Part shown: positions 1 to 24,217 of the stretch, one piece after another
How positions within the stretch are numbered: position 1 is the first letter of the stretch
Layout of the letters: every line of letters starts with the position of its first letter
IMG/VR virus record: IMGVR_UViG_3300032053_000457
Span: 1 to 25,795 of that record
Length of the DNA stretch: 25,795 bases
Direction: 5' to 3' (one strand)
From: a virus
Made by a program: the position numbers and the translations under genes
The notes under the pieces: model-generated
The model's database searches: none
What the model saw: only the letters and a program-made list of their open reading frames with translations
What the model was told of the DNA's origin: nothing

Positions 1-1438
1 CCGTGGAACCGTGACCGACGATATTGATTGTAAGTTGTGGACCCGGAGTCGGCGCGGGCGTCACGGTAGGTCCGGTCGTGGGCGTCGGGGTGACCGTCGG
101 GGTAGGCGTTATCGTCGGCGTGGCCGTTACGGTTGGAGTGGGGGTCCGCGTAGGCGTAGGGGTTGGCGTCCTCGTCGGAGTCGGAGTAGCCACGATGAAC
201 GTCGCAGTCGTATCCGTAGCGGAGGCCGGCATTACGAAGGAGCAGTTGCCGCCGCCGCTGCACTGGGTACCAGACCACGCGCTGAACGCCCAGCCGGGCT
301 GCCCCGTCGGCGTCAGGGATACCGTCGTGCCGTTAGGCACGCTGTAGTTGCAGAGCGTGGAGGGGTAGTCGCAGCCACCAACGCCGACGCCGCCTAGGGT
401 GACGCCTACCGAGCCGTAGCCGGCGATGTTCAAGGTGAAGACCGGAAGGGGCAGGGGCGTCGGAGTGATGGTCCGGGTCGCGGTCGCCGTCGGGGTGACC
501 GTTGGCGTGAGAGTGGGGGTTCGCGTCGGGGTGGGCGTCTGCTGCAAGAACACCGCGTTGACGCCCGTAGCGGCAGAGGGCATCGCGAAGGAGCAGACTG
601 GGTTGGAGCCGGAGCAAACGCCCCCGCCCCCCCAGTACGAGAACCCGTATCCCTGCGCCGGGCTCGCCGTGAGGATCACCGCGACCCCGCTGCTGATCGA
701 GTAGTAGCAGGGCGTCGTGGTCTGGTCGCACTGGCCGATGTTCGACCCGCCAGCGTTGACGTTAACCGAACCCGAGGAGGCGATCACGACGGTGAGTCGT
801 GGTAGCGGCGTTGGCGTGACGGTCGCGGTCGGGGTTGGCGTCTTCGTCACCGTGGGGGTAGGGGTCGGAGTAACCGCCGCGCTGTAGCTCACCGTGATCG
901 TAACGACGTCAACGGAGCCGGTCACCATCTGGCTCTCGGAGATCATCTCCGCAGTCAGGGCTACACCGAAATTCGAGGCATTCACGTCAGCAGGGGTTAA
1001 AGTCAGGCCCCAAAGATCGGTACCGCTGCCGTATGCCTTGGCTGCTAGTACGAGCGGCCAGGTCCCCGCCGCGTAATTGTTGCCCGATACTGTTCCCCCT
1101 TTGATTAGTCTGACGGCGCTATCTGCGACGAGTGATGGCGTCGTTTTACTAGCTTTACGAAGAACAGAGACCGTGACGCCGTTGATCGTCGAGCCTGAGG
1201 GGATCGAGAAACCGAATCCAGTCAACGTTAGCTGCCCAGTGAAAACGTCGTCCGTAAAGGGGCTGGTCGCTACGGTAAACACGCCATCTTGCGCCTGGGC
1301 ATTGGCCGGGTTGACCCAGGGCTTTGTTCCCCCGATGCTCGAGGCTGCAGTAGCGGTATTCGGCCCGGCGTCCGTCGCTAGGCCTCGCCCGGTAAAGCAG
1401 AGGCCGATCAGTAGCGCGAGGGCGAGGACCTTCCTCAT
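1..1438 (-). CDS. Secreted-type phage adhesin with Thr-Pro linkers and InlB-like repeats (partial)
   Basis: The frame opens at ATG 1438 and stays open for 479 codons to the window edge, so the C-terminus is missing. Residues 1-21 (MRKVLALALLIGLCFTGRGLA) look like a Sec signal peptide. Residues 22-188 form a beta-rich domain with motifs FGFSIPSGSTINGVTVSV and DLWGLTLTPADVNASNFGVAL, which I recognise from phage and environmental adhesin-like proteins. Three Thr-Pro linkers (about residues 189-213, 300-332 and 417-467) alternate with copies of a Cys-containing domain resembling divergent InlB B-repeats (SVNVN...C...C.Y.I..G..V.LTA.P..G..F..W.G..C.G....C.F.MP). Two copies are complete and a third begins at residue 468. 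The start overlaps the fibre stop as ATGA, so translation is probably coupled. The role is inferred as virion-tip or host-surface binding. The alternative is a secreted lysogenic-conversion protein. Confidence 0.8.
   Translation of the reverse strand, partial: MRKVLALALLIGLCFTGRGLATDAGPNTATAASSIGGTKPWVNPANAQAQDGVFTVATSPFTDDVFTGQLTLTGFGFSIPSGSTINGVTVSVLRKASKTTPSLVADSAVRLIKGGTVSGNNYAAGTWPLVLAAKAYGSGTDLWGLTLTPADVNASNFGVALTAEMISESQMVTGSVDVVTITVSYSAAVTPTPTPTVTKTPTPTATVTPTPLPRLTVVIASSGSVNVNAGGSNIGQCDQTTTPCYYSISSGVAVILTASPAQGYGFSYWGGGGVCSGSNPVCSFAMPSAATGVNAVFLQQTPTPTRTPTLTPTVTPTATATRTITPTPLPLPVFTLNIAGYGSVGVTLGGVGVGGCDYPSTLCNYSVPNGTTVSLTPTGQPGWAFSAWSGTQCSGGGNCSFVMPASATDTTATFIVATPTPTRTPTPTPTRTPTPTVTATPTITPTPTVTPTPTTGPTVTPAPTPGPQLTINIVGHGST
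40..190 (-). repeat. Thr-Pro linker 3 of the adhesin
   Basis: About 50 codons alternate Pro with Thr, Val, Ala, Arg or Ile (TPTPTRTPTPTPT pattern). On the plus strand the same DNA reads as a spurious Val-Gly repeat. The segment joins the second and third InlB-like domains. Its codons vary (ACG/ACC/ACT with CCG/CCC/CCA/CCT), so it is a protein-level repeat and not a simple DNA satellite. Confidence 0.85.
444..540 (-). repeat. Thr-Pro linker 2 of the adhesin
   Basis: About 32 codons of TP-rich sequence (QTPTPTRTPTLTPTVTPT pattern, ending TPTPLPLP) separate the first and second InlB-like domains. Such linkers are typical extended spacers in surface proteins. Confidence 0.85.
801..873 (-). repeat. 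Thr-Pro linker 1 of the adhesin
   Basis: About 25 codons (TPTPTPTVTKTPTPTATVT pattern, ending TPTPLPR) join the N-terminal beta domain to the first InlB-like domain. Linkers 1 and 2 both end in TPTPLP, which suggests that linker plus domain was duplicated as a unit. Confidence 0.85.
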
Positions 1439-4400
1439 GGCGACTTCTCACCGTAGTCGACGCTCGGTTCGAACTCGAAGGCCGTTAGGGAGAGCGCGTG
1501 GCCAACGGCTCGAATCTGCTGCCCCGCACTCGGGTTGAATGTAGCAACTGGCAGGATGTTCCCGGCAGTCGTGTAGTCAACGAAGTAGAGCGAGCCGACC
1601 GTGAGGGACCAACCCGAGACCTCGAGGATGCCTCTGGTGAGGATCACTCCGGTCGAGCCACTCCCGATGCCGGCGGGGCAGATGCCGAGCTTTACCGGCC
1701 CGCTGGTGGCCGCGGCATCGGATTTTGCCTTGTACCACTTAGCGTCCGCAGCAAGGTAGGCGACATCCTTCTGGCTCAGCGCCTCGCCTGCCGTCTGGCC
1801 GGTCATCATCTCGCCCCAGTAGTTGCCACTTCCGGGCGAAGCAGTCACCTTCCAGGTGTTCCCGACGAAGCCGCCCGCCGTTATCGTTCCACTGATGTTA
1901 AGGTTGCCAGTCTGCGCCGTGCCTGGAGTGCTCGACTGGAGCGCGACGGCACCGCCAGAATTGGTGGGCGTTACCGCCAACGAGTTCGTCAGCACGCCAG
2001 CTACGAGGCTCAGAGTGAGTGGAGCAGTCCCGCTTGCGGAGTTCACCCCATTGGTCGCGGTGGTCGCATTCCCGGCGAGGCTCGCGGTAATGGTACCTGC
2101 AGAGAAGTTACCGATAGCATCGCGGCGTACTACCGAACTGGCGACGTTGCTATTCGTCGCCGTGTTTGCGATCAGTTCAGCCCCATGTATATTGGCGGCC
2201 GTAGAACCCCCAACCGTAATTACCGTGGGAGCCGTGTAGGTACCCCCAAGATTACCGGTCAGTTGTACGATTCCAGGCTCGCTCACCGTAGCAGCTGGCA
2301 GCTCTGCGGGAGTGATCGCTCCAACCGTCATGGGATCTCCCACGCCAAGCTGCTTGACGAATTGGCCAGTCCCTCCGGTTGAGCCGAGATCTGCACCGGT
2401 CCCGCCTTGCGCAAGTATTAACTGTCCGCTGATAAGCTCCGATGCGTCGTGGTTGTGAACGCCGGGGGCATAGTCTGTCCCGGTCGTGGCGATCGAGATT
2501 ATGCCGGTCGTCTCCTCGACCTTAAGAATTCCACCATAACCCAAATCGGAGAGCGCTTGCGAATTGATGAGAGCCGCATCTGGTACTTGGGTAATGTAGG
2601 TAGCCGTTAGGTCACCGCTATTGGGTGGTTGACTCGCGGGCACTGCCCACGTCCCCGCTGCTGTCAAGTATTTTCCTGCCGCCGTGTCACCAGCACCAGG
2701 AGCAGGTACCGCGCCCTGAGTTCCCCCTGCCCCTCCATCCCCGACCATCACTGGGTAATCACCCGCAGAGAGCAGCGCCACGGTCACGGAATCGCCCAAG
2801 TTGATTTGTTGGAGGAAGCCCGGCCCGGTAGCTGACAGGTCTGAACCCGTACCGCCGACGACCAAGGAGAACGATCCAGTAGTGATCTTCGCGGCGTCAA
2901 GGTCCGGGACATCCGCAGCTACGAGGGTATGCCAGGCCGGGGCCGCGGAGTTCGCGCCGTCGCCCGTCTGCGTCAGGAACTGCATGTCCGTCGTGGTGTT
3001 GCCCGCGAGCGCCGTCCCCGTCCCGGACGCCCCACCGTAGAGTAGGTCCCCAAGCGCAGCGAACGGCGAGAGCGCGTCAAAGGCATCTGCCTTCGCGGTC
3101 TGGCCCGTGCCGCCGTTCGCGATCGGAAGGACTCCCGTTACGGCACTGGCCTCGGAGAGCGTCAGGGCTCCCCAGGTCGGGCTAGCTACGCCCCCCGTGA
3201 GTACCTGGAACTCCGTACCCTTCGCTAGGCGCGCGAACGTGGAGGCCGAATCGGCTACTAGGAGGTCCCCGACGACGGCGCTGCCGGATAGGTCGGTCCC
3301 CATGCCTCCGTCCACTACCCCGACGGGAGTCGTTAATGAAAGCGTCACGTCGCTAGTGAGGGCCCCACCCCCCGTGAGTCCGCTTCCGGCGATTACCTGG
3401 CGCGAAGTGTAGACCCCGTTCGTGACCGTGCCGGCGTTCCCCGTGGCGTTCCCGGTAAGGTTCCCGGTCACGTTGCCCGTGAGGTCCCCGACCACGTTCC
3501 CCGTGAGGTCCGCCGTGACCGTACCGGCAGCGAGGTCCCCGCTCGCGTCCCGCTTCACGATCGCGCTTGGAGTGTTTAGGGCCGTCGCCGTGTTCGCCGC
3601 CACGGTCCCCGCGTAAACCTCCGCCGCAGTAGACCCACCGACGGTCTCCACCACGGTCGCAGACTGAGTGCCCGTCACGTCCCCGACGAGCGGCCCACTG
3701 AAGTCCGTCACGGAGCCGATCAAGTCGGCCGTGATAGTGCCTGCGGAGAAGTCTCCTGAGGAATCACGCTTCACGATGGCGTCGGGCGTATTGGCATCGG
3801 TCGCCGCATTGGCCGTGATCTCGGCAGCATTGACTAGGGCCGCCGTCGAGCCACCAATCGTTAATACGGTAACGCTGGTCGCCGCTCCGCCCAAGTCACC
3901 CGAGAGCTGCACCGTCCCGAGCGTCGAAGCCGTCGCGTCGTTCACCGAACCGGTGAGTCCATTCGCCGAGAAGGCGAGCACCAGGGGGGCAGTACCGGAG
4001 GCCGACTGAACGCCCTCCGCTGCCGGCGCGGCCCCGACCTCCGAGGGCAGCGCGCCCGTGGGATTGATCTTCGACCAGAGGATGCCCGCAGAGGCGTCCA
4101 CGTCGACGTTCGAGACGAGCTTCGCATTCGCGTCCTGAGCTCCGGCGCTGATATGCACGAAGCCGGTCCCCGCAGGAGGTGAGTAGGTACCGCTGATCAG
4201 CGTCCAACTAGTAGCGCCAGCGCCGTTCGCGGTTAGGACGGAGCTGTTCGCGGCCCCCCCAGATCCGAGTTCGGCGGCATCGCTGCCTGACTTCGAGATC
4301 TGCACCCACGCCGCTACGCCCGAGATATCGGTAAACGCCGGTTGCAGGCAATTGGCGTTACCGTTGGCCGCGATTCCCGTGCTGAAGTAGTTTGTCCCAC

Positions 4401-6051
4401 ACTGGGTAGGGGCGATCGCCAGAGCCGAGGCGGTCGTGGCGTTTGCCGCGATTGTCCCGGTGATCTTCGACCCGTCCAGTGAGATAATCCAGGATGGATC
4501 TGAATAGCCAACGTTCACGTAGACGCCATTAGTTACGGTCCCCGCATTCCCGGCGATGTCCCCGATGATCTTGTTGCCAGCAAGCGACGTGAGCCATGAG
4601 GGATCGGGGTAGGACCCGGTTGTGTAGACCCCATTGGTGACGGTCGAGGCGTTGCCGGTCAGATTACCGGTGATATCACCGACGAATCCCCCGGCCCTGA
4701 CCGTCCCGGAGACATTTACGTTACCAGTCTGCTGCGTCCCTGGAGTCGTACCCTGCAGGGCCACGGCGCCCCCGTCGTTGGCCGCAGTGATCGCGATGCT
4801 TCCGGTTAGGGCCTTGGCCGCCAGGTTAAGGGCCAGGGGTGCGGTACCCCCGGCGCTTGTCAGACCGTCTCCGGAGGTCGTGGCATTCCCCGTAACGTCG
4901 CCAACTAGGTTGCCCACAAAGGTAGCCGCTCGAGCCGTTCCCGAGAGGTTCAGATTACCAGTCTGCTGAGTACCCGGCGTGGAAGCCTGGAGAGCCACCG
5001 CCCCCCCGCTGTTGGTTGGGGTGACGGCTACACTACCAGTTAATGCCTTCGCGCCCAAGGAAAGTACCAAGGGGGCCGTTCCTATGGCACTCGAGAGCCC
5101 GTCGTCAGAACTCGGGACGCTGCCCGTGAGCTTGGAGGCGGCCAGGCTAGTAATCCAGCCGGGGTCGGAGTAACTCCCAGTCGAATATAGGCCGTTGGTG
5201 ACGGTCCCTGCGTTCCCGGTGACACTCCCCGTCACCGCCCCCGTCAGACCCCCGACGAAGGTCCCGGTCACGGTCCCAGTAAAGGTAGGACCAGCGATAG
5301 GCGCTAGGAGGGCTAGGCTGGCGCTCAGAGCCGAGATATCCGTGATCCCTAGGGACCGCTCGGAGGCGGCCGTAAGACGCCCCTGAGTGTCAACAGTGAA
5401 GCCTGCGGCCTTGCCTAGCCCTAGACCGTAGGTCGCCGGGACGACCGCAGTGCTGGCAAGGTTGAGGGTCAGAGCCCCACCACTCCCGCCACCAGACAAT
5501 CCCGTACCGGCTAGGACATCCGTAACCGTTCCGGTTCCGGGAGGATTGTACCAGGCGAACCCACCAGAACCGTTAGCGGAGAGGACCTGGTGGAGAGTCG
5601 CCGCCCCGCTTCCGAGCTGGGCGACATCGCCCCCCACGAGCATATAAGACGGGCTGATCGTCGGTTGTGCTCCTGCGGAGTAGATCTCCTGGAGGCTGAT
5701 CGTCCCACTGGCCTCGGGGACCCCCGCCTGGAACGTCCAGACGAGCCTGTCGACCGCCGAGACCGTCTGGTAGACCTGGAATCGGTAGGTCGCCGGGCTG
5801 ACGATCGTGCAGGCCCCTGCGCAGGTGAGGTTTCCCGAGACGATCGGATAGGTTGCGGTCGTCAGCTGGGCGAGGCCTCCGCCCGTGACGTCCGTCGGCA
5901 CCCTCCCCTGGGGCGTAATTACCACACTGCCAGCCGTTACCGCCGTGCCGTCCGGGGTAATGATCCTGCCAGTGAGCGGACGAACTGTCAGTGCTCCGGC
6001 TGGACTCGCCAATAAGCAGGCTAGGATTAGCGCTAGAACCATCTTTCTCAT
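1435..6051 (-). CDS. Large modular tail fibre with N-terminal signal peptide
   Basis: The product has 1538 residues. I chose ATG 6051 because it gives a signal-peptide-like N-terminus (MRKMVLALILACLLASPAGA), has a GGGGGA ribosome binding site and starts one base after the upstream stop. Residues 21-125 resemble the N-terminal beta domain of phage fibres (GRIITPDGTAVTAGSVVITP). Residues 280-1400 are a chain of Gly/Thr/Asn/Ala-rich fibre repeats: a 57-residue GTAPL...TGNLN.SGT unit, a GGSTAA...VKRD.SGDF unit, an NAGTVTNGVY.TGSYSDPSW unit, and GGTG motifs such as LPIANGGTGQT, common in trimeric tail fibres. Residues 1400-1538 (AGEALSQKDVAYLAADAKWYKA...) resemble a DUF2190-like decoration domain. 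It lies downstream of the tail hub, as expected of a receptor-binding fibre. The signal peptide is unexpected for a virion protein assembled in the cytoplasm. Confidence 0.88.
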   Translation of the reverse strand: MRKMVLALILACLLASPAGALTVRPLTGRIITPDGTAVTAGSVVITPQGRVPTDVTGGGLAQLTTATYPIVSGNLTCAGACTIVSPATYRFQVYQTVSAVDRLVWTFQAGVPEASGTISLQEIYSAGAQPTISPSYMLVGGDVAQLGSGAATLHQVLSANGSGGFAWYNPPGTGTVTDVLAGTGLSGGGSGGALTLNLASTAVVPATYGLGLGKAAGFTVDTQGRLTAASERSLGITDISALSASLALLAPIAGPTFTGTVTGTFVGGLTGAVTGSVTGNAGTVTNGLYSTGSYSDPGWITSLAASKLTGSVPSSDDGLSSAIGTAPLVLSLGAKALTGSVAVTPTNSGGAVALQASTPGTQQTGNLNLSGTARAATFVGNLVGDVTGNATTSGDGLTSAGGTAPLALNLAAKALTGSIAITAANDGGAVALQGTTPGTQQTGNVNVSGTVRAGGFVGDITGNLTGNASTVTNGVYTTGSYPDPSWLTSLAGNKIIGDIAGNAGTVTNGVYVNVGYSDPSWIISLDGSKITGTIAANATTASALAIAPTQCGTNYFSTGIAANGNANCLQPAFTDISGVAAWVQISKSGSDAAELGSGGAANSSVLTANGAGATSWTLISGTYSPPAGTGFVHISAGAQDANAKLVSNVDVDASAGILWSKINPTGALPSEVGAAPAAEGVQSASGTAPLVLAFSANGLTGSVNDATASTLGTVQLSGDLGGAATSVTVLTIGGSTAALVNAAEITANAATDANTPDAIVKRDSSGDFSAGTITADLIGSVTDFSGPLVGDVTGTQSATVVETVGGSTAAEVYAGTVAANTATALNTPSAIVKRDASGDLAAGTVTADLTGNVVGDLTGNVTGNLTGNATGNAGTVTNGVYTSRQVIAGSGLTGGGALTSDVTLSLTTPVGVVDGGMGTDLSGSAVVGDLLVADSASTFARLAKGTEFQVLTGGVASPTWGALTLSEASAVTGVLPIANGGTGQTAKADAFDALSPFAALGDLLYGGASGTGTALAGNTTTDMQFLTQTGDGANSAAPAWHTLVAADVPDLDAAKITTGSFSLVVGGTGSDLSATGPGFLQQINLGDSVTVALLSAGDYPVMVGDGGAGGTQGAVPAPGAGDTAAGKYLTAAGTWAVPASQPPNSGDLTATYITQVPDAALINSQALSDLGYGGILKVEETTGIISIATTGTDYAPGVHNHDASELISGQLILAQGGTGADLGSTGGTGQFVKQLGVGDPMTVGAITPAELPAATVSEPGIVQLTGNLGGTYTAPTVITVGGSTAANIHGAELIANTATNSNVASSVVRRDAIGNFSAGTITASLAGNATTATNGVNSASGTAPLTLSLVAGVLTNSLAVTPTNSGGAVALQSSTPGTAQTGNLNISGTITAGGFVGNTWKVTASPGSGNYWGEMMTGQTAGEALSQKDVAYLAADAKWYKAKSDAAATSGPVKLGICPAGIGSGSTGVILTRGILEVSGWSLTVGSLYFVDYTTAGNILPVATFNPSAGQQIRAVGHALSLTAFEFEPSVDYGEKSP
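1861..5082 (-). repeat. Fibre repeat family A (57-residue GTAPL units)
   Basis: Three full copies lie at 4912-5082, 4678-4848 and 1861-2031 (fibre residues 324-380, 402-458 and 1341-1397), with a truncated copy near residue 686. They share GTAPL.L, LTGS.A.T..N.GGAVALQ, STPGTQQTGN and SGT...FVG. The third copy lies almost 950 residues from the first two, as expected from module duplication and shuffling. Confidence 0.8.
2077..3918 (-). repeat. Fibre repeat family B (GGSTAA...VKRD units)
   Basis: Copies lie at 3721-3918, 3502-3663 (lacking the leading strand) and 2077-2274 (fibre residues 712-777, 797-850 and 1260-1325). Shared motifs are VQL.G.LGG, T.GGSTAA, ANTAT..N, VKRD.SGDFSAGT and TADLTGN. 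These are typical of repeated shaft segments in phage fibres. Confidence 0.78.
3403..5214 (-). repeat. Fibre repeat family C (NAGTVTNGVY...SDPSW units)
   Basis: Copies lie at 5116-5214, 4555-4653 and 4450-4548 (fibre residues 280-312, 467-499 and 502-534), with a short copy at 3403-3438. The pattern is NAGTVTNGVY, then GSYSDPSW and TSLAGSKITG. They alternate with family A units in the first third of the shaft. Confidence 0.78.
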
Positions 6052-6052
6052 G

Positions 6053-6268
6053 CTATCCCCCAAACCAATCGCTCCATTGCTCGGGGTCAACCCTATGGAG
6101 CATGTGCTGAATCACAAAACCTTGCAGGACATGGACGGCCGTCGTCATTTCACTGAGATTCGCCCTTAGACCCCACAACTGGACCTTTTGTACGATCATG
6201 GCCAACGCGTCCATTACCTGCTGCTCTTCTATCTCAAGTCGTAATCCAGAAGGAATTGTTCCGCTCAT
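6053..6268 (-). CDS. Small protein of the tail module, function unknown
   Basis: The product has 71 residues and I do not recognise its family. The sequence looks mostly helical (LEIEEQQVMDALAMIVQKVQLWGLRANLSEM), without a signal peptide or a clear membrane segment, and ends in an acidic and aromatic tail (DPEQWSDWFGG). The ATG has a good GGGGGA site, and the gene sits 8 bases after the tail hub stop and 1 base before the fibre start. Its position between hub and fibre would suit a fibre chaperone or small baseplate protein, but this is inference from position only. Confidence 0.75.
   Translation of the reverse strand: MSGTIPSGLRLEIEEQQVMDALAMIVQKVQLWGLRANLSEMTTAVHVLQGFVIQHMLHRVDPEQWSDWFGG
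6056..6061 (-). promoter_or_regulatory. Ribosome binding site fixing the fibre start at 6051
   Basis: GGGGGA lies 4 bases before ATG 6051 and inside the last codons of the preceding small gene. The in-frame TTG at 6090 would add 13 residues ahead of the signal peptide and overlap the upstream gene, so it is disfavoured. Confidence 0.6.
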
Positions 6269-6276
6269 GCTTCCCC

Positions 6277-8658
6277 CTAGGTAAAGCTATACGCCACCGA
6301 CGGGATCGATACCCGCCCGTCGATCAGGACCGCCTCGTACTCTATCAGCCACGGCGAACCCCCGGGGACGATCGACAGGTCGAGCGCGCTGATCGCGTCC
6401 TGGAACACGCCGCCGCCTACGATCGTGAGCAGGCCGCCTACGCCGACGAAGAAGTTGGGGTTCTCCGGCCTCGCGGCGATCCCGGTTACGAGGCTACCGG
6501 AGCCGCCCCACAGCCTACGGTTGAACCCGAGGAGTTGGGTGATCGGGAAGGGCCAGGAGAAGGTGACGGTGTGCGGCGCCGCTCCGCTGCCGGTTACGCC
6601 GGTAACGACCGGCGGCTCCGGGATCGCCGAGGCGTCGATCTCCGCGTAGTCGGTCGGCGTGTAGTAGACCCCCGTCGCGTTAATGAGGTCGAGGTCAACG
6701 CTCTCGACTGGCTCTCGGAGCTCCCTCGACAGCTTCACTACCCACCACTCATCGGCGGCAGCTAGCCGAACCCGCCCGAGCAGCTGAAGTCCGACGACGG
6801 ACTCTCCCTTCACCTTAACCGTAGTCCGCGCCCGGCGCTTGCCGAAGTAGGTCCAGAGCCTGTCGACGACCTGGTTCAGCCAGGCGTACGTGTCCATGAA
6901 GTCGGACGTGACCTCGAGCGTCGCCCCGCCCTGGCGCGGCGACCCGCGCTGCACCTGCGTGCCGTTGACTCCGCCCACCTTGATGTACGGGTAGAAGAAC
7001 TCCCAGGCCATCGAATCCTGACGCTCGAGGATCTTCGACGTGCCGTCCGGCATCGCGGTCGAGAGGTCGTAGAGCGAGCCGAGGCCGAGGTCGCGGCGCT
7101 GGAAGCAGTAGGTTACCAGGGGGGCACCCGGCGCGCCGGAGAACGTGCAGAACAGGGCGCAGTTACTCACCACGGCGAGCATAGAGAGCGCGTCAGCCAC
7201 GCTCTTCCCGCCGAAGTCCGCGTAGTGTACGACGTTGTCGGAGAAGGCGAGCGCGTTTACGGACGAGGTGAGCGCCCCGCCACATGCGGCGGCGAAGAGC
7301 AGCGTGGCTAGCTGGCTGATCGTCTTGTCGCGGTAGTACGGCGTGGCGAGCACTACGCCGTCCGTCGCGAGCAGGTCAGCCTCGAGGTCGTCCATCAGCC
7401 AGAGCATGTGGTCGGTCAGGTCGGGCGCTGGCGGGGCCGTGTGCGGCCCGGCGAATTGGATCTCCACGACCTGGGTCTGCGCGGCCGTCGTGGCAAACGC
7501 GGTCATCAGCGTCGTATACGAGCCGGTGTTCGCGCTCGTGAGGGTGAGCTTGTCGCCCTCCTGCGCCGAGGTCTTGCCGGTTAGGCCGAGGATCGTAATG
7601 CTCGGACCCATCGACTCGAGGAGCCGCTTTAAGTTCGACTTGCGGATCGAGTAGGTCGGCGCGTTGATGATCGTCCCCGGCCAGGTGTGCGGCGTGATAT
7701 CCGGACCGGCCGGGTAGCCGCCCTGCTTTAGTACGACGTACTTGTTGATGAAGCCCCCGGCGCCTACGATCGTATCGGTGATCTGCCAGAAGACCCCGGC
7801 CGAGTCCTCCAGCCAGTACCCGGTCCAGCACCCGACGTTATAGAGGTTCTTCCCGGTATCCTGGAGGTACTGATGAGTCCCGTCGACCGATCCGACGCTG
7901 AGCGTCCCGCTGTCGCTCTGCCAGTCGTAGCGCGTGGCGAAGATCATCGGCCGGATGGTAAACGAGCCGGTCGGCGGAGGCACCACGACCGGCTGAGTGT
8001 AGGCGCGGCCGGGCGCACGGTGGGGGTTCGTGATCCTCAGCTTGTCGGTCCCTCCGACCCCGACGCCGTAGACGCTGACGATCGTCCAGATGATCTCGTT
8101 CTTGTCGATTAGGCAGTTGTTCGCGACCACCGTCCCCGTCAGCCAGAAGTTACTCGTCTGAACCCAGTAGTCGCTCCCGCCGAGCGAGCCGACCGAGAGG
8201 ATCGTCCCGGCGGTCGAGAGTGCCGGGATCGTCCGCCTCACCGTCTCCGCCGTCCACTGCTCCAGCCGGTGGGGCGGGCCGAGCACCGTGAAGCTTACGG
8301 TTCTCTGCTTGCGGTCGAAGGTTACGGTCTTGAGGTCGACGTCGCCCTGGAACACGAGCGCGCCGTCCTGGTAGATCGAGACGTAGTGGCAGAGCGGGTA
8401 GCGCGCGGTAGGGTCCAGGTTCGCACTCGTGAAGCCGAACAGGTCCCACGCCCCGTCGTCGTTCCTGGCCGTCAGGGTGACGTCCCCGCAGGAGAACTCG
8501 GAGAGGTTCTGCTCGACCTCGGAGAACAGGCTCGGGATGCTCGCGGCGATCACGTCGTAGAAGTGGTACGCACTGATCGACGTCGAGTCGAAGATCGTGT
8601 ACGTCAGCGTCAGGCGCGACGTGAAGTTAGGGACCGCGATGTCGATGCGGAGGCTCAT
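6277..8658 (-). CDS. Tail hub / tail-associated (Tal-like) protein
   Basis: The product has 793 residues. The N-terminal 140 residues (CGDVTLTARNDDGAWDLFG, then LVFQGDVDLKTVTFDRKQRT) resemble hub domains of siphophage tail-tip proteins, in which a measuring frame is followed by a re-derived source-code block. A beta-rich middle is followed by a segment like the closing hub domain (GLQLLGRVRLAAADEWWVVKL). The C-terminal 130 residues look Fn3-like (PPVVTGVTGSGAAPHTVTFSW). I saw no peptidase or lysin motif. It starts 1 base after the preceding stop. Its place after tape measure and distal-tail candidate, and before fibres, fits the central hub at the tail tip. The functional class is secure by context, but the exact family is not assigned. 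Confidence 0.72.
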   Translation of the reverse strand: MSLRIDIAVPNFTSRLTLTYTIFDSTSISAYHFYDVIAASIPSLFSEVEQNLSEFSCGDVTLTARNDDGAWDLFGFTSANLDPTARYPLCHYVSIYQDGALVFQGDVDLKTVTFDRKQRTVSFTVLGPPHRLEQWTAETVRRTIPALSTAGTILSVGSLGGSDYWVQTSNFWLTGTVVANNCLIDKNEIIWTIVSVYGVGVGGTDKLRITNPHRAPGRAYTQPVVVPPPTGSFTIRPMIFATRYDWQSDSGTLSVGSVDGTHQYLQDTGKNLYNVGCWTGYWLEDSAGVFWQITDTIVGAGGFINKYVVLKQGGYPAGPDITPHTWPGTIINAPTYSIRKSNLKRLLESMGPSITILGLTGKTSAQEGDKLTLTSANTGSYTTLMTAFATTAAQTQVVEIQFAGPHTAPPAPDLTDHMLWLMDDLEADLLATDGVVLATPYYRDKTISQLATLLFAAACGGALTSSVNALAFSDNVVHYADFGGKSVADALSMLAVVSNCALFCTFSGAPGAPLVTYCFQRRDLGLGSLYDLSTAMPDGTSKILERQDSMAWEFFYPYIKVGGVNGTQVQRGSPRQGGATLEVTSDFMDTYAWLNQVVDRLWTYFGKRRARTTVKVKGESVVGLQLLGRVRLAAADEWWVVKLSRELREPVESVDLDLINATGVYYTPTDYAEIDASAIPEPPVVTGVTGSGAAPHTVTFSWPFPITQLLGFNRRLWGGSGSLVTGIAARPENPNFFVGVGGLLTIVGGGVFQDAISALDLSIVPGGSPWLIEYEAVLIDGRVSIPSVAYSFT

Positions 8659-8659
8659 G

Positions 8660-9172
8660 TTACCAGTCCGCCGACGCGACGCCCCCGACTACCTGGCGTA
8701 TCGCCTTCTGAGCGAAGGTTACTTCAAGGCCGACCGAGACGTTCTTCCCCGTTACGGAGACGAAGTTGACCTCCGAGTCGACGTAGCAGATCCTGAAGCT
8801 AGAGCCGCCGTTGACCGAGACCTCCAGGTAGTTGCCGACCGTGAATAGGTCGGAGAGTAAGGCGCCGAGCGAGGTCACGTTGACCCCGCCGCCCCCGAGC
8901 ACGCGGCTAGCCGAGCCTCGGACGTACTCCTTGCGCTCCTCCCAGGCTACTGGTAGCCGGTAGCGCACCCCGACCAGGAGTGGGTCCTCGCTATAGTCTA
9001 GGCCAGGCCGCTCGAGCTGCTTCTTCTCCCCGGGGCTGATCGGACCGCAGCGCACCGGCTGGATGGGCGGCATCTCGCCCGGGGCACCGTAGGCGAAGAA
9101 GTAGTGCAGCGGGGTTCCGGACGAATTTTTTGTTCTAAGGCATAAATCGTAGCTCCAGACGAAGATGCTCAT
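8660..9172 (-). CDS. Distal tail (Dit-like) protein candidate
   Basis: The product has 170 residues and no motif I can name securely. It is mixed beta with a Gly/Val-rich C-terminal half (GVNVTSLGALLSDLFTVGNYLEVSVNGG) and an N-terminal half with several Pro and Cys residues. The ATG overlaps the stop of the homing endonuclease as ATGA, and its stop is 1 base from the hub start. In siphophages the gene between tape measure and Tal usually encodes the distal tail protein linking tube to tip. The length is short for a classical Dit with a carbohydrate-binding domain. The assignment rests mainly on gene order. Confidence 0.6.
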   Translation of the reverse strand: MSIFVWSYDLCLRTKNSSGTPLHYFFAYGAPGEMPPIQPVRCGPISPGEKKQLERPGLDYSEDPLLVGVRYRLPVAWEERKEYVRGSASRVLGGGGVNVTSLGALLSDLFTVGNYLEVSVNGGSSFRICYVDSEVNFVSVTGKNVSVGLEVTFAQKAIRQVVGGVASADW

Positions 9173-9993
9173 GGTCGCACCCCGAAAGGAGTGGCAATAA
9201 CTAGCCTTTCGCGTGCAAAGTAAGCACGCCTGGCTTCGGACATTTTCGCGCGCGTCTGCGGTGAACGCTTCTTGCCGAGGTTTGCCGCAGTAGTCTTGGC
9301 ATGTGCTGCTGCCCTATAAGGGCTATTGCGGAGACCCTCGGAGATCTTCGCGCGGTGCTCAGCAGTTAGGGTTTTGCCGCGCTGGGCCTTCGAGATGTTC
9401 GCATAATGCTCAGCCGTAAAGGGTGGTCGCTTTCTTCCCTTCCAGGCCGCGGAGAGTTTTGCTCGATGCTCGGCGCTAAGGATTATCCCGCGATGTCCGG
9501 CGGCAATCTTCGCCCGCGTCTCCGGGCTGCGCGCTCCCCTCCGCCGGTTTGACTCTCCGATCCGTGCGCACCACTCGGCATTGCGAGGAATACGGCTCAT
9601 AAATGCACTAATTCTTCCTCGCGCTTCTGCGCTCCACATCCTTCGACGATTAGCACCCGCTACGGCAGCGCCTGCCGCCGGGCTTACACCATCGCCACCA
9701 TCCGTCCCGTTTACAAGCCGATAATTTCGGGCGCGGAAATTCGCAATAAGCGCGATCTCACACCGCTTCGCTTCCTTGGTTGATTCGAGAATCGCCACGG
9801 TCCGTATTATAGGGCGCAAGGAATCAGCAAGGATACTGCGCAGCCAGTGAAGTTTACGGGTACCTCCACTATAACGCGCCTCATAGAGGTGACTCTTGAG
9901 CCGCTCCTTTGCTGTCTTCGATGTCCACCCAACGTATCGGACTTCTCCAGTTCGCGGATCAGCTAGGGTATAGAGGCTAATGATCACATTCAC
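9169..9993 (-). CDS. GIY-YIG homing endonuclease with NUMOD3 repeats
   Basis: The product has 274 residues. Residues 1-100 form a GIY-YIG nuclease domain: the first half-motif appears as SLYTL (6-10), the second as YVG (20-22), then R31 in RLKSHLYEAR and E79 in CEIALIANF as the likely metal-binding Glu. Residues 121-257 carry six NUMOD3-like DNA-binding units of the form SAEHRAKLSAAWKG (about 121, 156, 173, 193, 210 and 244). This is a free-standing phage homing endonuclease that presumably cuts tail-region DNA of relatives lacking it. It sits between tape measure and distal-tail genes with a 4-base ATGA overlap on both sides. Hand-counted lines inside it are 52-62% GC, against 68% in a tape-measure line, which supports separate ancestry. 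Confidence 0.92.
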   Translation of the reverse strand: MNVIISLYTLADPRTGEVRYVGWTSKTAKERLKSHLYEARYSGGTRKLHWLRSILADSLRPIIRTVAILESTKEAKRCEIALIANFRARNYRLVNGTDGGDGVSPAAGAAVAGANRRRMWSAEARGRISAFMSRIPRNAEWCARIGESNRRRGARSPETRAKIAAGHRGIILSAEHRAKLSAAWKGRKRPPFTAEHYANISKAQRGKTLTAEHRAKISEGLRNSPYRAAAHAKTTAANLGKKRSPQTRAKMSEARRAYFARERLVIATPFGVRP

Positions 9994-11888
9994 TGGCCGC
10001 CTCCCCCTATTGTCGTAGCCTTGCGGTTCACGATCCCGCGGTCGTAGGAGCGCGACCCAGGACGTAGGATCCGCTGGAACTGCCTGGCGGTCTGCACCGC
10101 GCCGTCGCCCGTGAGCGTGTTGATCGTAATGTTGCTCGGCTGGTTAACCGTGCTCTGTACGCTAGTCGTCGAGACCGGGCTGGGCGCGGTCGGCGCCCCG
10201 GTGTAGACCATCGGTGGCATGGTAGCGGAAGCGGCCCCCGCGCTGGCACCCCCGGCGATGCCCGGCTCCGTCTGTGTAATCTGCTTAACCTGCATCAGGC
10301 CGGCCGCGATGACCGCCGCAGCGGCGATGAACGAGAAGGGGGGCGGGTAGGCAGAGAGCGCCTTCGTTGCGCCTTCATAGGTATTGATGAGCGCCTGCGC
10401 GACGGCTACTCCCTTGACGTTTCCGAACTGGCTAAGGGCGAACTTCGTCGCGTCGAGCATGCTCGCCTGATCGAGCTTGGCCTTCGCGTTGACGAGGTCC
10501 GCCTCGATCCGCTCCTGCGTCTGGGCGGACGTCATCTCCGTGGCCTCGATCTCGCGAAGCTCGTCGATCTTCGCTTGAAGCTCGGCCATCGTCCAGTTCT
10601 TGTACTTGCTAGCTAGCTCCTTGTGGATCTTGTCGACCTTCTCGGCGTTCTTGCGCCACTCCTCCACCTGACGGGCGAGGGCTTCCTTGACCATCTTCTC
10701 TTCGACCTTGAAGGGCATCCCGGTTAGCGGGTCGATAGCGTCGACGTCCGTGATCGGTCTGGCTTTCGGGAGTGTTTGTAGTTTCTCCTCCGGCTTCTTC
10801 ATCTTCTCGCGGATGATGGCGATATCCTTCGCGAGCTGCTCCTGGCCGGTCTTTACGTGGGTGTTGCTCTTGTCCCAGGCATCGTTCACGTCCTTCGTCA
10901 TCTTCTGGACGTGGGCCTGGGCCTTCTCTAGGTCCGCGATGATCGTATCGCCGAACCCAGCAATTTCCCACTTCGCCTTTTTAAAGTTACCGGTGAGGTA
11001 ATCCTTGATGGCGAGGCCTAACGTCTTGACGTGCGTGATGAATGAGACGACCAGCGTGGTCGTGTAGACTAAGCCGCCCGCGATGAATACGAGGCCCTTC
11101 GAGAATGCCTTCAGTAGGGAGCCCTCGCCCGTTACCCCCGTGTCCATTACGATGCCGCCGATCGCGTCCTTGGTCTCTTGCCACGCGACCTTCGCGCGGG
11201 CCATCTTCATGGCGGCCGTCTCGACTGCGGCTCCGGCGTCCCCGTAGTCCTTGTAGAGGATCACCGTCGCCGCCCCTAAGTCTCCAGTCGTCTTGATGAG
11301 GTCGCGGAGGAGGTTCTGGAACGGCCCCACCCCTCGGATCGTTCCCGTCGCAATCGCCCTCGAGAGCGCGGTGACGTTGCCCTCGAACTCTCCGATGCCC
11401 CGCGCCGCCGCCCCAGCGGAGATTTCGACGAGCCTCTGCGCGGAACTAACGTCCCTCGTCACGGCCATCGTCTGAGTTAGGGCCGGAATGAGCACGTTCT
11501 TATCGAGGCCGGCGGCCTTCTGCATCTCGAAGACCCACGCGCGCGTGCTGATGACCTGCGCGTCGGTCGCGTGGCCTAAGAGCCTCGTATTCGCCGCGAG
11601 CTGCGTGAGGAGCTTGTCTTCCTCGACCGCGCCCTTAAACGAGTCCCAAACTAGCCTAACTACCGCCGCGAACCCGACGAATTGGGCGATGAGGCTGACG
11701 ACCTTCCCCTTCAGGCCGTCCAATGCGCCACCATGCTGCTCGGTAGCGGTCTTCGCCTGGGCTTGCTGCTGAATGTGCTGCGCGGTCGTCGCGTTCAGCT
11801 TCTCGAGTTGAGCGCCAACGTCCTTAAGCTTAGCGTCATCGCTCGTCCAGCCGATCTTCGTCGCGATCTCGTAGTTCTGGTCGGCCAT
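9990..11888 (-). CDS. Tail tape measure protein
   Basis: The product has 632 residues, short for this family. It sets tail length and is packed in the tail lumen. The N-terminus is helical with a Gln-rich coil (QHIQQQAQAKTATEQHGG), followed by a hydrophobic stretch at about 63-80. Residues 92-200 show a conserved tape-measure pattern (LGHATDAQVISTRAWVFEMQKAAGL, with NVTALSRAIATGT). A second hydrophobic stretch lies at about 265-288, followed by a long charged coiled-coil region and a C-terminal QPSNITINTLTGDG beta motif. By the usual proportionality of about 1.5 angstrom per residue, a tail of very roughly 95 nm is expected. It starts inside the preceding stop (TGATG) and ends in ATGA with the endonuclease gene. 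Confidence 0.92.
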   Translation of the reverse strand: MADQNYEIATKIGWTSDDAKLKDVGAQLEKLNATTAQHIQQQAQAKTATEQHGGALDGLKGKVVSLIAQFVGFAAVVRLVWDSFKGAVEEDKLLTQLAANTRLLGHATDAQVISTRAWVFEMQKAAGLDKNVLIPALTQTMAVTRDVSSAQRLVEISAGAAARGIGEFEGNVTALSRAIATGTIRGVGPFQNLLRDLIKTTGDLGAATVILYKDYGDAGAAVETAAMKMARAKVAWQETKDAIGGIVMDTGVTGEGSLLKAFSKGLVFIAGGLVYTTTLVVSFITHVKTLGLAIKDYLTGNFKKAKWEIAGFGDTIIADLEKAQAHVQKMTKDVNDAWDKSNTHVKTGQEQLAKDIAIIREKMKKPEEKLQTLPKARPITDVDAIDPLTGMPFKVEEKMVKEALARQVEEWRKNAEKVDKIHKELASKYKNWTMAELQAKIDELREIEATEMTSAQTQERIEADLVNAKAKLDQASMLDATKFALSQFGNVKGVAVAQALINTYEGATKALSAYPPPFSFIAAAAVIAAGLMQVKQITQTEPGIAGGASAGAASATMPPMVYTGAPTAPSPVSTTSVQSTVNQPSNITINTLTGDGAVQTARQFQRILRPGSRSYDRGIVNRKATTIGGGGQ

Positions 11889-13262: not shown

Positions 13263-13715
13263 TTAGCCGAGCGCGGTCTCCCGCGCGAACCTGACCCTGA
13301 TCGGGTACTCAAGTTGTCCCTCTCCCCTCAGGCCCGGATGGCCGGAGCGAACGCCGTCCTCGAGCAGGGCGTAGCTCACTCCGGCGATCCCGAGGCTGAT
13401 GTCGAAGAGCAGGTCGAGGACCGCCTCGACCTCGTTCAACTGATCTTGCACAAGGCCCTGGTTCTCGGTGCTCGAGCGCGTCGCTACGAGCAGCGTCGCG
13501 TGGACCTCCACCTTCATGTAGACGCCGGATTCGACGTCAACGAGCCTGCTACCCTGCTCCTCGATCCAGCACGCGGGAGTCGACTCCGGCATGATCCCCG
13601 AAGGATCGACTTCGAGGTCGCGCTGCGCCTTCGACCCCTGGCCGAACGCCTGCTGGAGGAGGTCCTGGTACCTCCGCGTTAGGTCCTGCATCACCACGTT
13701 GCGCCTACAGGGCAT
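13263..13715 (-). CDS. Tail terminator / tail completion protein candidate
   Basis: The product has 150 residues. The N-terminal helix (MQDLTRRYQDLLQQAFGQG) is followed by a beta sheet with YMKVEVHATLLVATRS and a second helix (QLNEVEAVLDLLFDIS). This order resembles the gpU-like or minor tail terminator fold that caps the tube. It lies between the gp10-like gene and the tail tube gene, the standard place. It overlaps the upstream gene by 11 bases. GGGGGA lies 9 bases before the ATG at 13715, and the internal ATG at 13691 has no comparable site. Function is assigned by position and secondary-structure impression. Confidence 0.65.
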   Translation of the reverse strand: MPCRRNVVMQDLTRRYQDLLQQAFGQGSKAQRDLEVDPSGIMPESTPACWIEEQGSRLVDVESGVYMKVEVHATLLVATRSSTENQGLVQDQLNEVEAVLDLLFDISLGIAGVSYALLEDGVRSGHPGLRGEGQLEYPIRVRFARETALG

Positions 13716-14343
13716 CTGGATTAGTCCCCCGAAGGAAGGCGGGCACGACCTTCATCGCGTGCTCCCCGATCCTGTTTCCCGCGAACTTCCAGCCGCTCGA
13801 CCACCAGTGCCGCGCCCTCAGCGTTACCTCCCGCCTGAGGACGTACCAGGCCTCGAAGTGCCGGTTCTTCCCCTCTCCCCTAGTGATTCCTACGACCTCC
13901 TTACCCTTCGGCCGGAAGAACGGGCTACCGTCCGGGGCGAGCGCGCCCCTAATGCTCTCTGCCCGCTCTCCGGAAGGTCCGAAGAGGTCCCGAGCCGCCC
14001 CCGCCTTCGTCCTGGCCGGCGGCAGCGGGATGATGAGCGACTGGGCCCGGGTAGGCCGGATCGTAGCGCCGGTCTCCTGGACCCTCCCGATGACCGCCCC
14101 GAGCTGGCCCCTAGGCAGCCCGACGGTCAGGCTGGTCGGCGTCTCCTCGACCGCCTTCAGGCTCATCGCGACGTAGCGCGCGAAGCCCCCCGTCCGGCGC
14201 ATGAGCAGGTCGTCGTTCAGGTTCGTCAGGACCTGCCTGGTACCGTCCGCGACGACCCTCCTTGCCAGCGCCTTGCCCAGCTTCGGGGCGTCCAGCCCGA
14301 GCTTCTGGTAGATCACGATGGCCTCGGCGATGGAGATCTGCAC
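13705..14343 (-). CDS. HK97 gp10-like head-tail joining / tail component protein
   Basis: The product has 212 residues. The start is GTG, sharing its G with the TAG of the connector gene (TAGTG). The N-terminus is helical (LGLDAPKLGKALARRVVADG), then comes a basic, Pro-rich middle (ATIRPTRAQSLIIPLPPAR) and a C-terminal RHWWSSGWKFAGN segment near the end. The length, basic character and place between connector and tail terminator suit the HK97 gp10 / neck-protein family, which helps join head and tail. The homology is not certain. Confidence 0.62.
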   Translation of the reverse strand: MQISIAEAIVIYQKLGLDAPKLGKALARRVVADGTRQVLTNLNDDLLMRRTGGFARYVAMSLKAVEETPTSLTVGLPRGQLGAVIGRVQETGATIRPTRAQSLIIPLPPARTKAGAARDLFGPSGERAESIRGALAPDGSPFFRPKGKEVVGITRGEGKNRHFEAWYVLRREVTLRARHWWSSGWKFAGNRIGEHAMKVVPAFLRGTNPDAL

Positions 14344-14930
14344 TAGAAGACCCGCCCGTAGTAGTCGATCGTCGTCTGCATGAAGTGGTAATCCTTCGAG
14401 TTCCTTGCCAGCTGGCCGATCCTCTCAGCCCCCAGCGTGCTCGACGTGATCCCGAGCCTATTCGTCTCCTCGAGGAGCAGCCACGTCAGCATGGCGACGA
14501 CCTGTTGAACGTCCTCCGGGATCGGCGAGAAGCCGACCGTCGCGACTAGCTGGACGTTGCCGACGCCTAAGGGCCACGGGCGCCCGATCGCTAGAAGATA
14601 ACGCTGCGAGGGGTGGATGATGTAGTCCTGCGCGGCGTACTGCGCCCCGAAGGCGAGTTGGGCCCAGGCCTCGTTCTCGACGAGGACCGAGGCGACCGCC
14701 GCAATCGGCCAGTCGCCGAGGAGCGAGAGGACCTTGTTGCCCCTCCCGGAGAGCAGGTAGTTCTTCGCCGCTGACGTGATATCCCGCCCGACCGCGTTCG
14801 TGAACCACTGAGAGGCCGCATTCAGGCACGCCGTAGCCCTCGCTAGCAGGCTATCGTTGTCCTCGAACTTCCCGCCCTGAGACGGGGGCCTAACCTTCTC
14901 GACCCTCGCGATGGTGGTTAACGCCGCCAC
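14343..14930 (-). CDS. Head-tail connector (gp6-like adaptor)
   Basis: The product has 195 residues with a GTG start and a GGAG site 8 bases upstream. It is mainly alpha-helical: an N-terminal helix (ATACLNAASQWFTNAVGRDI), a beta hairpin (KNYLLSGRGNKVLSLLGDWP) and C-terminal helices (VQQVVAMLTWLLLEETNR). This order, with a hydrophobic two-strand segment between helices, matches gp6/gp15-type adaptors that bind beneath the portal ring. It is the first gene after the major capsid gene and its hairpin, which supports the role. Confidence 0.72.
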   Translation of the reverse strand: MAALTTIARVEKVRPPSQGGKFEDNDSLLARATACLNAASQWFTNAVGRDITSAAKNYLLSGRGNKVLSLLGDWPIAAVASVLVENEAWAQLAFGAQYAAQDYIIHPSQRYLLAIGRPWPLGVGNVQLVATVGFSPIPEDVQQVVAMLTWLLLEETNRLGITSSTLGAERIGQLARNSKDYHFMQTTIDYYGRVF

Positions 14931-20311: not shown

Positions 20312-20827
20312 TTACCGCACCAGCAGAGCCGTCACGCTCACGCGCTGGCCGCTTCCCATGCCGGTGCTGACCCTCGCCCGCAGGTACTGAACGGGCGCCC
20401 CGGCCTGTACTAGCGTCTTCGTATAGACTCCCGCCACGGTGATCGCGCTCCCGAACGGCGCCCAGGTCCCCGCGAAGTTCGGATCGTCAGAGACTTCGAT
20501 CTGGACCGCCCCGGCCGGAGTCGGCGTCGCGGTACGGGTAGGCGTGGTAGTCGGGGTGGGCGTCGCCGTCGAGGCCCCCGTCGGGGTAGCCGTAGCGGTT
20601 GGCCAGGCCCCCCAGGTGATCACCAGCGTGACATACCGCGGCTGTACCCGGTTGTTCCAGCAGTGTAGGACCGGGCCGGTCCCGGACGTCGCGTCCGAGA
20701 GCAGCGTGAACGGGCCGAGGTTCCCTTCGCCCGGCTCGAAGATGAACGGCTGCGCCGCGATCGAACCGATCAGCGCTGCGACGACCATGACGACCAGTAT
20801 TCCGAACGCCCTCGCAAACGGTCTCAT
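20312..20827 (-). CDS. Signal-peptide beta protein with internal Thr-Pro insertion
   Basis: The product has 171 residues. Residues 1-25 (RPFARAFGILVVMVVAALIG core) look like a signal peptide or signal anchor. Residues 36-75 and 105-171 together resemble a small beta-sandwich phage decoration domain (ATSGTGP, YVTLVITWGA, then AVQIEVSDDPNFAGTWAPFG, VQYLRARVSTG, SVTALLV). Residues 76-104 are a Thr-Pro run placed in the turn between two strands of that domain. ATG 20827 overlaps the upstream stop as ATGA. It may be a surface-exposed decoration or secreted binding protein. Confidence 0.72.
   Translation of the reverse strand: MRPFARAFGILVVMVVAALIGSIAAQPFIFEPGEGNLGPFTLLSDATSGTGPVLHCWNNRVQPRYVTLVITWGAWPTATATPTGASTATPTPTTTPTRTATPTPAGAVQIEVSDDPNFAGTWAPFGSAITVAGVYTKTLVQAGAPVQYLRARVSTGMGSGQRVSVTALLVR
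20516..20602 (-). repeat. Thr-Pro insertion inside a beta domain
   Basis: About 29 codons (residues 76-104) of Thr/Pro/Ala, with TPTPTTTPTRTATPTP at the end, interrupt what is otherwise a continuous beta domain. The composition matches the linkers of the adhesin at the left edge of the window. Confidence 0.8.
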
Positions 20828-21066
20828 GCCTCACTCTCCCTGGGTTGCCCCATCTGCTTGATCTTGATTTCAGCCGCGTGTATGAGTTTAACGACCTTCC
20901 TCGGCCCCAACTTCCGCGCCGCTTCCTCTGCCAGCAACTTCGCTACGAGCTTCTCGGCACCCGCCTCGATCCGAGCCTTCCGCGTCGCCTCGTTGCAGCG
21001 GCCGATATGGATTAGCAGCCAGCCGTTAAGGGCGAGGGACGCGCAGAGCCAGACCCAGTCAGCCAT
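20824..21066 (-). CDS. Small membrane protein with basic coiled tail
   Basis: The product has 80 residues. Residues 3-21 (DWVWLCASLALNGWLLIHIG) form one membrane segment, followed by a charged helix (TRKARIEAGAEKLVAKLLAEEAARKLG). The start codon overlaps the stop of the 40-residue gene (TAATG), and the stop overlaps the next start (ATGA). A single membrane helix with a cytoplasmic coil resembles some phage lysis accessory or envelope-associated proteins. The function is not established. Confidence 0.68.
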   Translation of the reverse strand: MADWVWLCASLALNGWLLIHIGRCNEATRKARIEAGAEKLVAKLLAEEAARKLGPRKVVKLIHAAEIKIKQMGQPRESEA

Positions 21067-21188
21067 TACAGCAGCCCCAGCCAGAGCAGGAACATCAGCA
21101 CGAGGAAGGCGACCGGGAGGAGCTTAACGAGCCAGCCTAGGCCGCGCTGAGTTTGGAAGGTCGGAGTCCACGGGTCCTTTACGTTCAT
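21066..21188 (-). CDS. Tiny hydrophobic membrane protein
   Basis: The product has 40 residues: a polar start (MNVKDPWTPTFQTQRG) and one C-terminal membrane helix (WLVKLLPVAFLVLMFLLWLG). ATG 21188 overlaps the portal stop as ATGA, a GGGGGAGGG site lies upstream, and the TAA overlaps the next start (TAATG). The double coupling supports translation. Together with the next gene it forms a pair of small membrane proteins inside the head module. A holin-like role is possible but untested. Confidence 0.68.
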   Translation of the reverse strand: MNVKDPWTPTFQTQRGLGWLVKLLPVAFLVLMFLLWLGLL

Positions 21189-24100: not shown

Positions 24101-24217
24101 CCTCAGCGTCGGCCCTTCGAACGGGGCGATCGCGGTCGAGAGGTTCCCCTGAAGGTCATACTGCGCCTTCTCGATCGGCCTGTTCGTGGCGTCGTAGAGC
24201 AGCGGGCGGTCGGCCAT
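21185..24217 (-). CDS. Portal fused to HELTE-motif domain and Mu gpF-like domain
   Basis: The product has 1010 residues. Residues 60-500 are a portal core (PFDPGIPLQPI, LRRFADSCAGIRVVIEQLKREFIGL, IDAALVAPYVTSRG, SLYYVNTYDKSDLPPGWI, FAWRVGVSAGPII). Residues 500-580 are an Ala/Pro/Gly-rich linker. Residues 585-680 hold VDGDLVRRDLNIDFTEGTNEF, then EVWIDDATPPDEWEFVVLHELTERALM with His653, Glu654 and Glu657, and His671 in a later AH pair. This resembles a conserved phage domain with a zincin-like motif. Residues 740-1010 are Mu gpF-like: ARTETREAYNNG (935-946), Cys971 and HPNC (992-995). One gene would thus supply the DNA gate and the minor head protein. The start shares a base with the terminase stop (TGATG). 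Confidence 0.85.
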   Translation of the reverse strand: MADRPLLYDATNRPIEKAQYDLQGNLSTAIAPFEGPTLRINRATPRGATPRADLSPMLALQQINPNLWPFDPGIPLQPITEGGGGIRWAPQAGYNVTYSPDKKIGIANSKLRRFADSCAGIRVVIEQLKREFIGLEKDILPRDAKGEAAETSKDREKLREFLACPDPDQDLDLQQWEMQVLEDLLVIGAPAIWRMHNYGGEFAGLRPIDAALVAPYVTSRGTQPKPPARAYSFSAYSLPYVAYTTDELIYKPMEARTWTPYGFGPVESTIAYVLVQIYRSLYYVNTYDKSDLPPGWITMPKDWTPKNILDFADEMAARFEGEQAERYHVRYMPGESKYQQAKQMPDWDYTFDEYIMRVFAWRVGVSAGPIIKQESIGKGSEGLMKEALAAGIRPISKYMKRLFDKTIWDEETGITVDGEEFPRGFGLKEYEYGFTEEREENKQLKLTENNDLQANAVRTVNDVRKEYGQEMLDPKEFPAADEPMFKLLTGWVPLRSIEILSPEEQQAKEEEKAKAAADAKAAALPPEGGGAPPVPPEGDGGGPGGPPAAAAKAPPKGKVPPQLAASARAAQGASKAVKADPDLSKYKLRRLEGADAEVVIWLVDGDLVRRDLNIDFTEGTNEFAPSGLGIVPAGEVWIDDATPPDEWEFVVLHELTERALMAEGMEYEEAHRRANVKELVARRQAPAKVDLRGDLRKWQRKAKADLKAGRKARPFVSEVIGAGTRYWVEKCLIEGDLAKAFRSSRAHVKTAATSERTAYHRTKMALWWEPRLKRFADHFGEIAVARLEHVRKVAKGMYDAGELNAAMLLLLKQTNGDWTDPDFTPSEYGELVTILEGMYEAGVADSVEIVGGGRVSAASYARSRAAQLIGKRWDPELGEWITNPDQRYVISDTVRQQVQDKLAAAIERGEDTAGFRDALDELFGSDIPSRASMIARTETREAYNNGAAENFRSMDVEDVEIMDGSGLGDICDEENGDVVSIDEFLAISADRHPNCTIAAAPVLMGEGEGE

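Follow-up and report, generated by a model that had tools for sequence, protein, structure and literature searches.

Fibres of tailed phages are taken to fold and to attach to the particle in the cytoplasm. The fibre gene of the virus record IMGVR_UViG_3300032053_000457 nevertheless appears to open with a Sec signal peptide, which raises the question of whether this fibre leaves the cell and where it would act. The window, that is, the whole stretch of DNA analysed here (25,795 nucleotides, a linear virus record of 25.8 kb), carries, on its minus strand, what reads as a tailed phage's virion-gene module. It is a fragment whose end truncates the last gene (2-1438). Along the minus strand lie the large terminase (24217-25680; phrog_2, Terminase_3), a 1,010-aa fusion of portal and Mu F-like head-morphogenesis domain (21185-24217), neck genes (13705-14930), the tape measure protein (9990-11888; phrog_3336, E 7e-6), a tail gene (8660-9172), and a 793-aa tail protein placed after the tape measure (6277-8658), which had no relative in viral contigs or phage records. 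A GIY-YIG/NUMOD3 homing-endonuclease-like gene (9169-9993, minus strand) separates the tape measure from a tail gene. Relatives of the terminase belong to Thermobifida and Streptomyces phages and to genomes of our Chloroflexota draw, all at roughly 40-55% identity. Between the 793-aa tail protein and the fibre, a 71-aa ORF read from the sequence (6053-6268, minus strand; no Pfam match) ends 1 nt before the fibre ATG.

The gene in question (1435-6051, minus strand) encodes 1,538 aa in an open frame. The sequence-only reading had called it a tail fibre, and this identification was borne out by its position after the portal, tape measure and tail genes and by repeats that match fibre proteins of other phage contigs. 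Its repeat module NGGTGQTAKADAFDALSP (approximately residues 970-1042; 2926-3144, minus strand) was searched in viral contigs, where 365 stretches were confirmed as related. The fibre N-terminus retrieved no relative from viral contigs or phage records, and the C-terminal region of about 148 aa (1435-1881, minus strand) matched nothing among viral contigs, phage records or solved structures. No solved structure resembled the fibre by sequence, no Pfam match to a peptidase S74 domain was obtained, and no surface anchor was identified in it.

A Shine-Dalgarno-like GGGGGA (6056-6061, minus strand) lies 4 nt from the ATG at 6051-6049, and an alternative TTG start at 6090 lacks a well-spaced Shine-Dalgarno sequence. 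The N-terminus reads MRKMVLALILACLLASPAGALTVRPLTGRIITPDG, and residues 1-20, MRKMVLALILACLLASPAGA (5992-6051, minus strand), form the predicted Sec signal peptide, with the predicted cut after residue 20, between MRKMVLALILACLLASPAGA and LTV. As in preproteins handled by Sec and signal peptidase I, a positive n-region (R2/K3) precedes an uncharged 12-residue core with a mean Kyte-Doolittle value of 3.1, and small residues occupy positions -3 and -1 (A-G-A before the cut). The cysteine at position 12 sits within the hydrophobic core, too early for a usual lipobox. Signals were scored with a home-made tool that rates n-, h- and c-regions by hand-set weights. On this scale the fibre reached 8.95, compared with 6.9-9.3 for a reference of four E. 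coli signal sequences. The apparent signal with its own ribosome binding site, as first noticed from the letters of the DNA, thus stood up to this closer look.

How readily could such an N-terminus arise by chance? Across its six frames the window offers 898 possible starts. Among all of these, a score of at least 6.9 together with a Shine-Dalgarno sequence occurred only at the fibre gene, at its neighbour 2-1438 and at 20312-20827; the fibre gene contributes two such starts, the ATG at 6051 and an alternative start just upstream, and the other starts scoring at least 6.9 had no Shine-Dalgarno sequence. Shuffling the first 45 fibre residues reached the fibre score in 128 of 20,000 trials (0.6%). 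These scan and shuffle figures are rough, given the home-made scoring and the fact that hydrophobic runs are favoured by composition alone. The third site, 20312-20827 (minus strand), combines a Sec-like N-terminus (MRPFARAFGILVVMVVAALIGSIAA, score 9.49) with a T/P-rich linker; it is located in the head-gene part and overlaps an 80-aa ORF (20824-21066) bearing one hydrophobic segment. About 1-2% of phage genes score as high as the fibre, and this base rate, together with the shuffles, leaves some room for a wrong start codon or a hydrophobic stretch that arose by chance and has no function. We nevertheless disfavour that explanation as very unlikely: the ATG is led by a Shine-Dalgarno sequence, two overlapping genes both carry a signal, a relative has the same layout, and signals are enriched on related fibres, as described below. 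The fibre N-terminus is very probably a genuine Sec-type signal.

The related fibres were assembled through the repeat module. From the best 80 of the 365 stretches, 60 non-redundant viral genes that share the module and have an intact 5' end were obtained. A Sec-type signal was found on 6 of these 60 genes (L206, L209, L215, L221, L227 and L233; L numbers denote the loci compared) against 6 of 667 other genes of the same loci (Fisher p = 1.5e-4), the same stretch of starts being allowed for both groups. Under a stricter start limit the counts were 4/60 and 6/667 (p = 0.006). Half of the six non-fibre genes that scored are antisense calls made on a single sequence, and the other three share their locus with a signal-bearing fibre. 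The nearest relative found, L209, shows the strongest similarity (61% over fibre residues 759-846), and its own N-terminal domain likewise stands directly behind a signal. Used as a query, the L209 N-terminus matched its own record alone. L227 is the clean case, in which terminase, portal, capsid, tape measure and tail genes are followed by the signal-bearing fibre, and signal-bearing fibres recur at this same position after the tail genes. Conservation of the signal in fibre homologues, which had been suggested as a check, is therefore partial: L209 and five others have it, and 54 of the 60 begin without it. Since the signal recurs on about a tenth of related environmental phage fibres, our data suggest that certain phages export fibres across the host membrane and do not confine them to particle assembly inside the cell.

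The segment directly behind the signal (approximately residues 21-125; 5677-5991, minus strand) had been described as a normal fibre N-terminal domain. What stood of this is a predicted beta-rich domain with a weak likeness to L209 at the same place (one comparison, 29% identity across 104 aa, E 9e-4). The AF2 model comes out all-beta, but at a pLDDT of 48.7 it could not support a fold search.

The next gene provides a second exported candidate. Its start is led by a Shine-Dalgarno sequence and overlaps the fibre stop, and the encoded protein (2-1438, minus strand, cut by the contig end), unrelated to the fibre in sequence, consists of a predicted signal peptide, MRKVLALALLIGLCFTGRGLA (1376-1438, minus strand; score 8.02), a MAM/CBM-like jelly-roll domain (869-1372, minus strand), T/P linkers and InlB-like repeats with a Pfam match to Flg_new_2. 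The jelly roll itself gave no Pfam match in the window protein and was recognised from alignments, a confident model (pLDDT 95) and fold matches. In fold comparisons it came closest to MAM domains and carbohydrate-binding modules (Z up to 10.7 over 134 residues, 3.7 A), with many other jelly rolls scoring nearly equally; phage tail proteins are among the matches in a viral library. Surface-type proteins with the same jelly roll are widespread among Bacteroidota, Chloroflexota, Pseudomonadota and Patescibacteria. In bacterial contigs (L113-L192) a signal precedes it in 57 of 80 rows, whereas 22 rows from viral records lack a signal and 2 have one. These bacterial surface proteins resemble the neighbour in that a signal is followed by the same domain, and differ from the phage locus in lacking the fibre module and in standing on bacterial contigs.

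In bacterial surface proteins a signal thus usually stands ahead of this jelly roll, which supports export. The same observation could also be read as capture of a host surface-protein gene as cargo, serving a lysogen or persisting as a remnant, which would have come to lie in the fibre locus because of shared repeats of fibre type. This reading can also point to L302, a bacterial contig of the Acidobacteriota draw, which encodes a 2,616-aa fibre-like protein with a related repeat (2365-10215). The N-terminus of that protein looks signal-like by eye, though the home-made scorer did not call it, and the gene adjoins a malate-dehydrogenase-like ORF. The repeat module, however, is common in viral contigs and was found in 1/296 and 0/297 sampled genomes of two bacterial phyla (the 0/297 search was run without a positive control), the tree of the jelly roll resolved neither viral versus bacterial origin nor the direction of transfer, and signal-bearing fibres keep the same position after tail genes. 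We consider host-gene capture improbable.

The jelly-roll domain led to further loci, L017, L026, L028 and L031, in which runs of signal-bearing genes occupy the fibre locus; the fibre locus of L007 also has such a run, partly judged by eye. Within 5 kb of the jelly-roll domain, 16 of 222 genes carry signals, compared with 18 of 1019 elsewhere (p = 7e-5), a comparison that is not an independent test because the group was chosen through the jelly-roll domain and includes the window. Runs of three to four consecutive signal-bearing genes, some with lipoboxes, were seen at L026:5122-9609, L028:13213-15871 and L031:5625-9399, and these runs stand just after a large signal-less jelly-roll protein.

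These loci bear on whether the N-terminal hydrophobe serves export or something else. Across L026, L028 and L031, the first signal-bearing fibre keeps the domain SSYxTKxTPVxxDKVLIxDS while the sequence of the signal ahead of it differs, and in L031 that signal ends in a lipobox, as in a lipoprotein signal. The reverse is seen in the next gene of L028 and L031, where the signal is kept and the bodies behind it are unrelated; over the 21 codons of this signal, 11 are identical, 7 differ by synonymous and 3 by non-synonymous changes. The domain behind the signal in L017 is found elsewhere at the very start of annotated phage tail fibres and spikes, where no signal precedes it; Xanthomonas phage PBR31 is an example. 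The alternative offered at the outset, a hydrophobic N-terminal anchor by which a non-exported fibre docks in the tail tip, fits the general knowledge that fibres normally join the tail through their N-terminus, yet it fared badly here. Relatives with the same repeats lack the segment, a neighbour of unrelated sequence also carries a signal, and the signals vary in sequence with the n/h/c layout kept, one of them becoming a lipoprotein signal ahead of a conserved domain. A docking hydrophobe is unlikely to become a lipoprotein signal; the property kept appears, from these sequences, to be export. We therefore disfavour the docking anchor, which we regard as very unlikely.

Taken together, the anatomy of the signal, its rarity by chance, its recurrence, and its persistence through changes in its own sequence or in the body that follows argue that the fibre is probably exported during infection. 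Counted against export and surface action are the home-made scorer, the 54 of 60 module-sharing fibres that begin without a signal, the weak N-terminal homology to L209 and the failure to identify a surface anchor in this fibre. The export proposed from the sequence alone has gained from the enrichment on related fibres, from the signals on L209 and on the next gene, and from the variation among L026, L028 and L031. The steps that would follow are inferred. The fibre, a protein of tail-fibre type, would be a substrate of the host Sec system; cleavage after residue 20 would leave a mature fibre of about 1,518 residues, which would form trimers and most likely reach the surface of the infected (or lysogenic) cell, either staying on display or being released. 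At that site it would bind surface structures together with the exported jelly-roll/InlB-repeat neighbour protein, and receptor masking or superinfection exclusion would be the most natural benefit. The whole chain, a Sec-exported phage fibre acting outside the cytoplasm, most likely at the surface of the infected cell, is put forward tentatively.

The main rival to surface action accepts export and holds that the fibre folds in the periplasm or outside the cell and attaches to tails at lysis, as a real adsorption fibre. It is consistent with the fact that no other large, signal-less fibre-like protein stands out around L209, L233 or L227 or in the window, and with the L017 domain, which behind its signal is the one that opens annotated virion tail spikes. 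The records compared are fragments, however, and a signal-less fibre may lie beyond the end of the window, since the record ends inside the neighbouring gene. In L026 and L028, moreover, a large jelly-roll protein that lacks a signal lies immediately upstream of the exported genes. We know of no tailed phage that attaches its fibres after Sec export. Our literature search, of limited coverage and thus weak evidence of absence, found no paper describing such assembly or Sec signals on tailed-phage fibres, and papers on phiCbK and on archaeal viruses held nothing on Sec signals of fibres. We consider assembly after export rather unlikely overall. Given export, we lean slightly towards the fibre acting on the cell surface over its joining virions. 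Receptor masking, adhesion and virion joining are all candidate functions, as are the host coating, superinfection block and membrane-guided assembly proposed from the sequence alone.

Several known systems share parts of this arrangement. The closest in layout are the MAT fibres of Bdellovibrio bacteriovorus, tail-fibre-like proteins with exchangeable tips whose surface display was shown with antibody and in which the signal peptide is followed directly by some 130 aa of beta-rich domain and then a long fibre body (PMC10769870). As exported tail-fibre-like proteins on a bacterial surface they support the export of our fibre, which likewise has a predicted signal peptide; the segment behind it is of fitting size and is modelled, at low confidence, as all-beta. 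The comparison is one of described layout. Unlike our fibre, which lies in a phage virion-gene module, MAT fibres are encoded by the bacterium for prey recognition. Thirteen of the 21 MAT fibres end in a peptidase S74 domain, and non-S74 tips are also allowed (PMC10769870). Further support comes from Llp of phage T5, an exported product that is encoded next to the receptor-binding gene and blocks the receptor, and for which Cor relatives are named in T1-like phages (PMC9586334). Like the fibre proposed here, Llp is a phage product sent to the host envelope from beside a receptor-binding gene. It is, however, a small lipoprotein of about 60-70 residues that acts on FhuA from the periplasm, and the 1,538-aa fibre is no small lipoprotein with a lipobox. 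G3p of M13 is a phage adhesion protein with a Sec signal that ends in particles, but M13 is filamentous rather than tailed, and its particles are put together at the membrane and extruded (PMC8310372). The ordinary tail fibres with GGTGQT-type repeats (L194, L193, L196-L274) share the module and the place of our fibre, and differ from it in that 54 of 60 lack the signal. Our fibre is filed under neither MAT nor Llp/Cor, nor under any other system compared.

It is possible, although we hold this with less than even confidence, that a widespread group of tailed phages routes its fibres through the Sec system of the host, to be shown on the cell or captured by virions after lysis. If the recurring exported fibre genes are what they appear to be, some phages would put fibres on the infected cell or complete their virions outside it, and a link would be drawn between phage fibres and surface fibres of bacteria, MAT among them. 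More cases could be sought by a simple genomic mark, the presence of a signal peptide within the fibre locus. Host-range prediction would be affected as well, because such 'receptor-binding proteins' may be absent from the virion.
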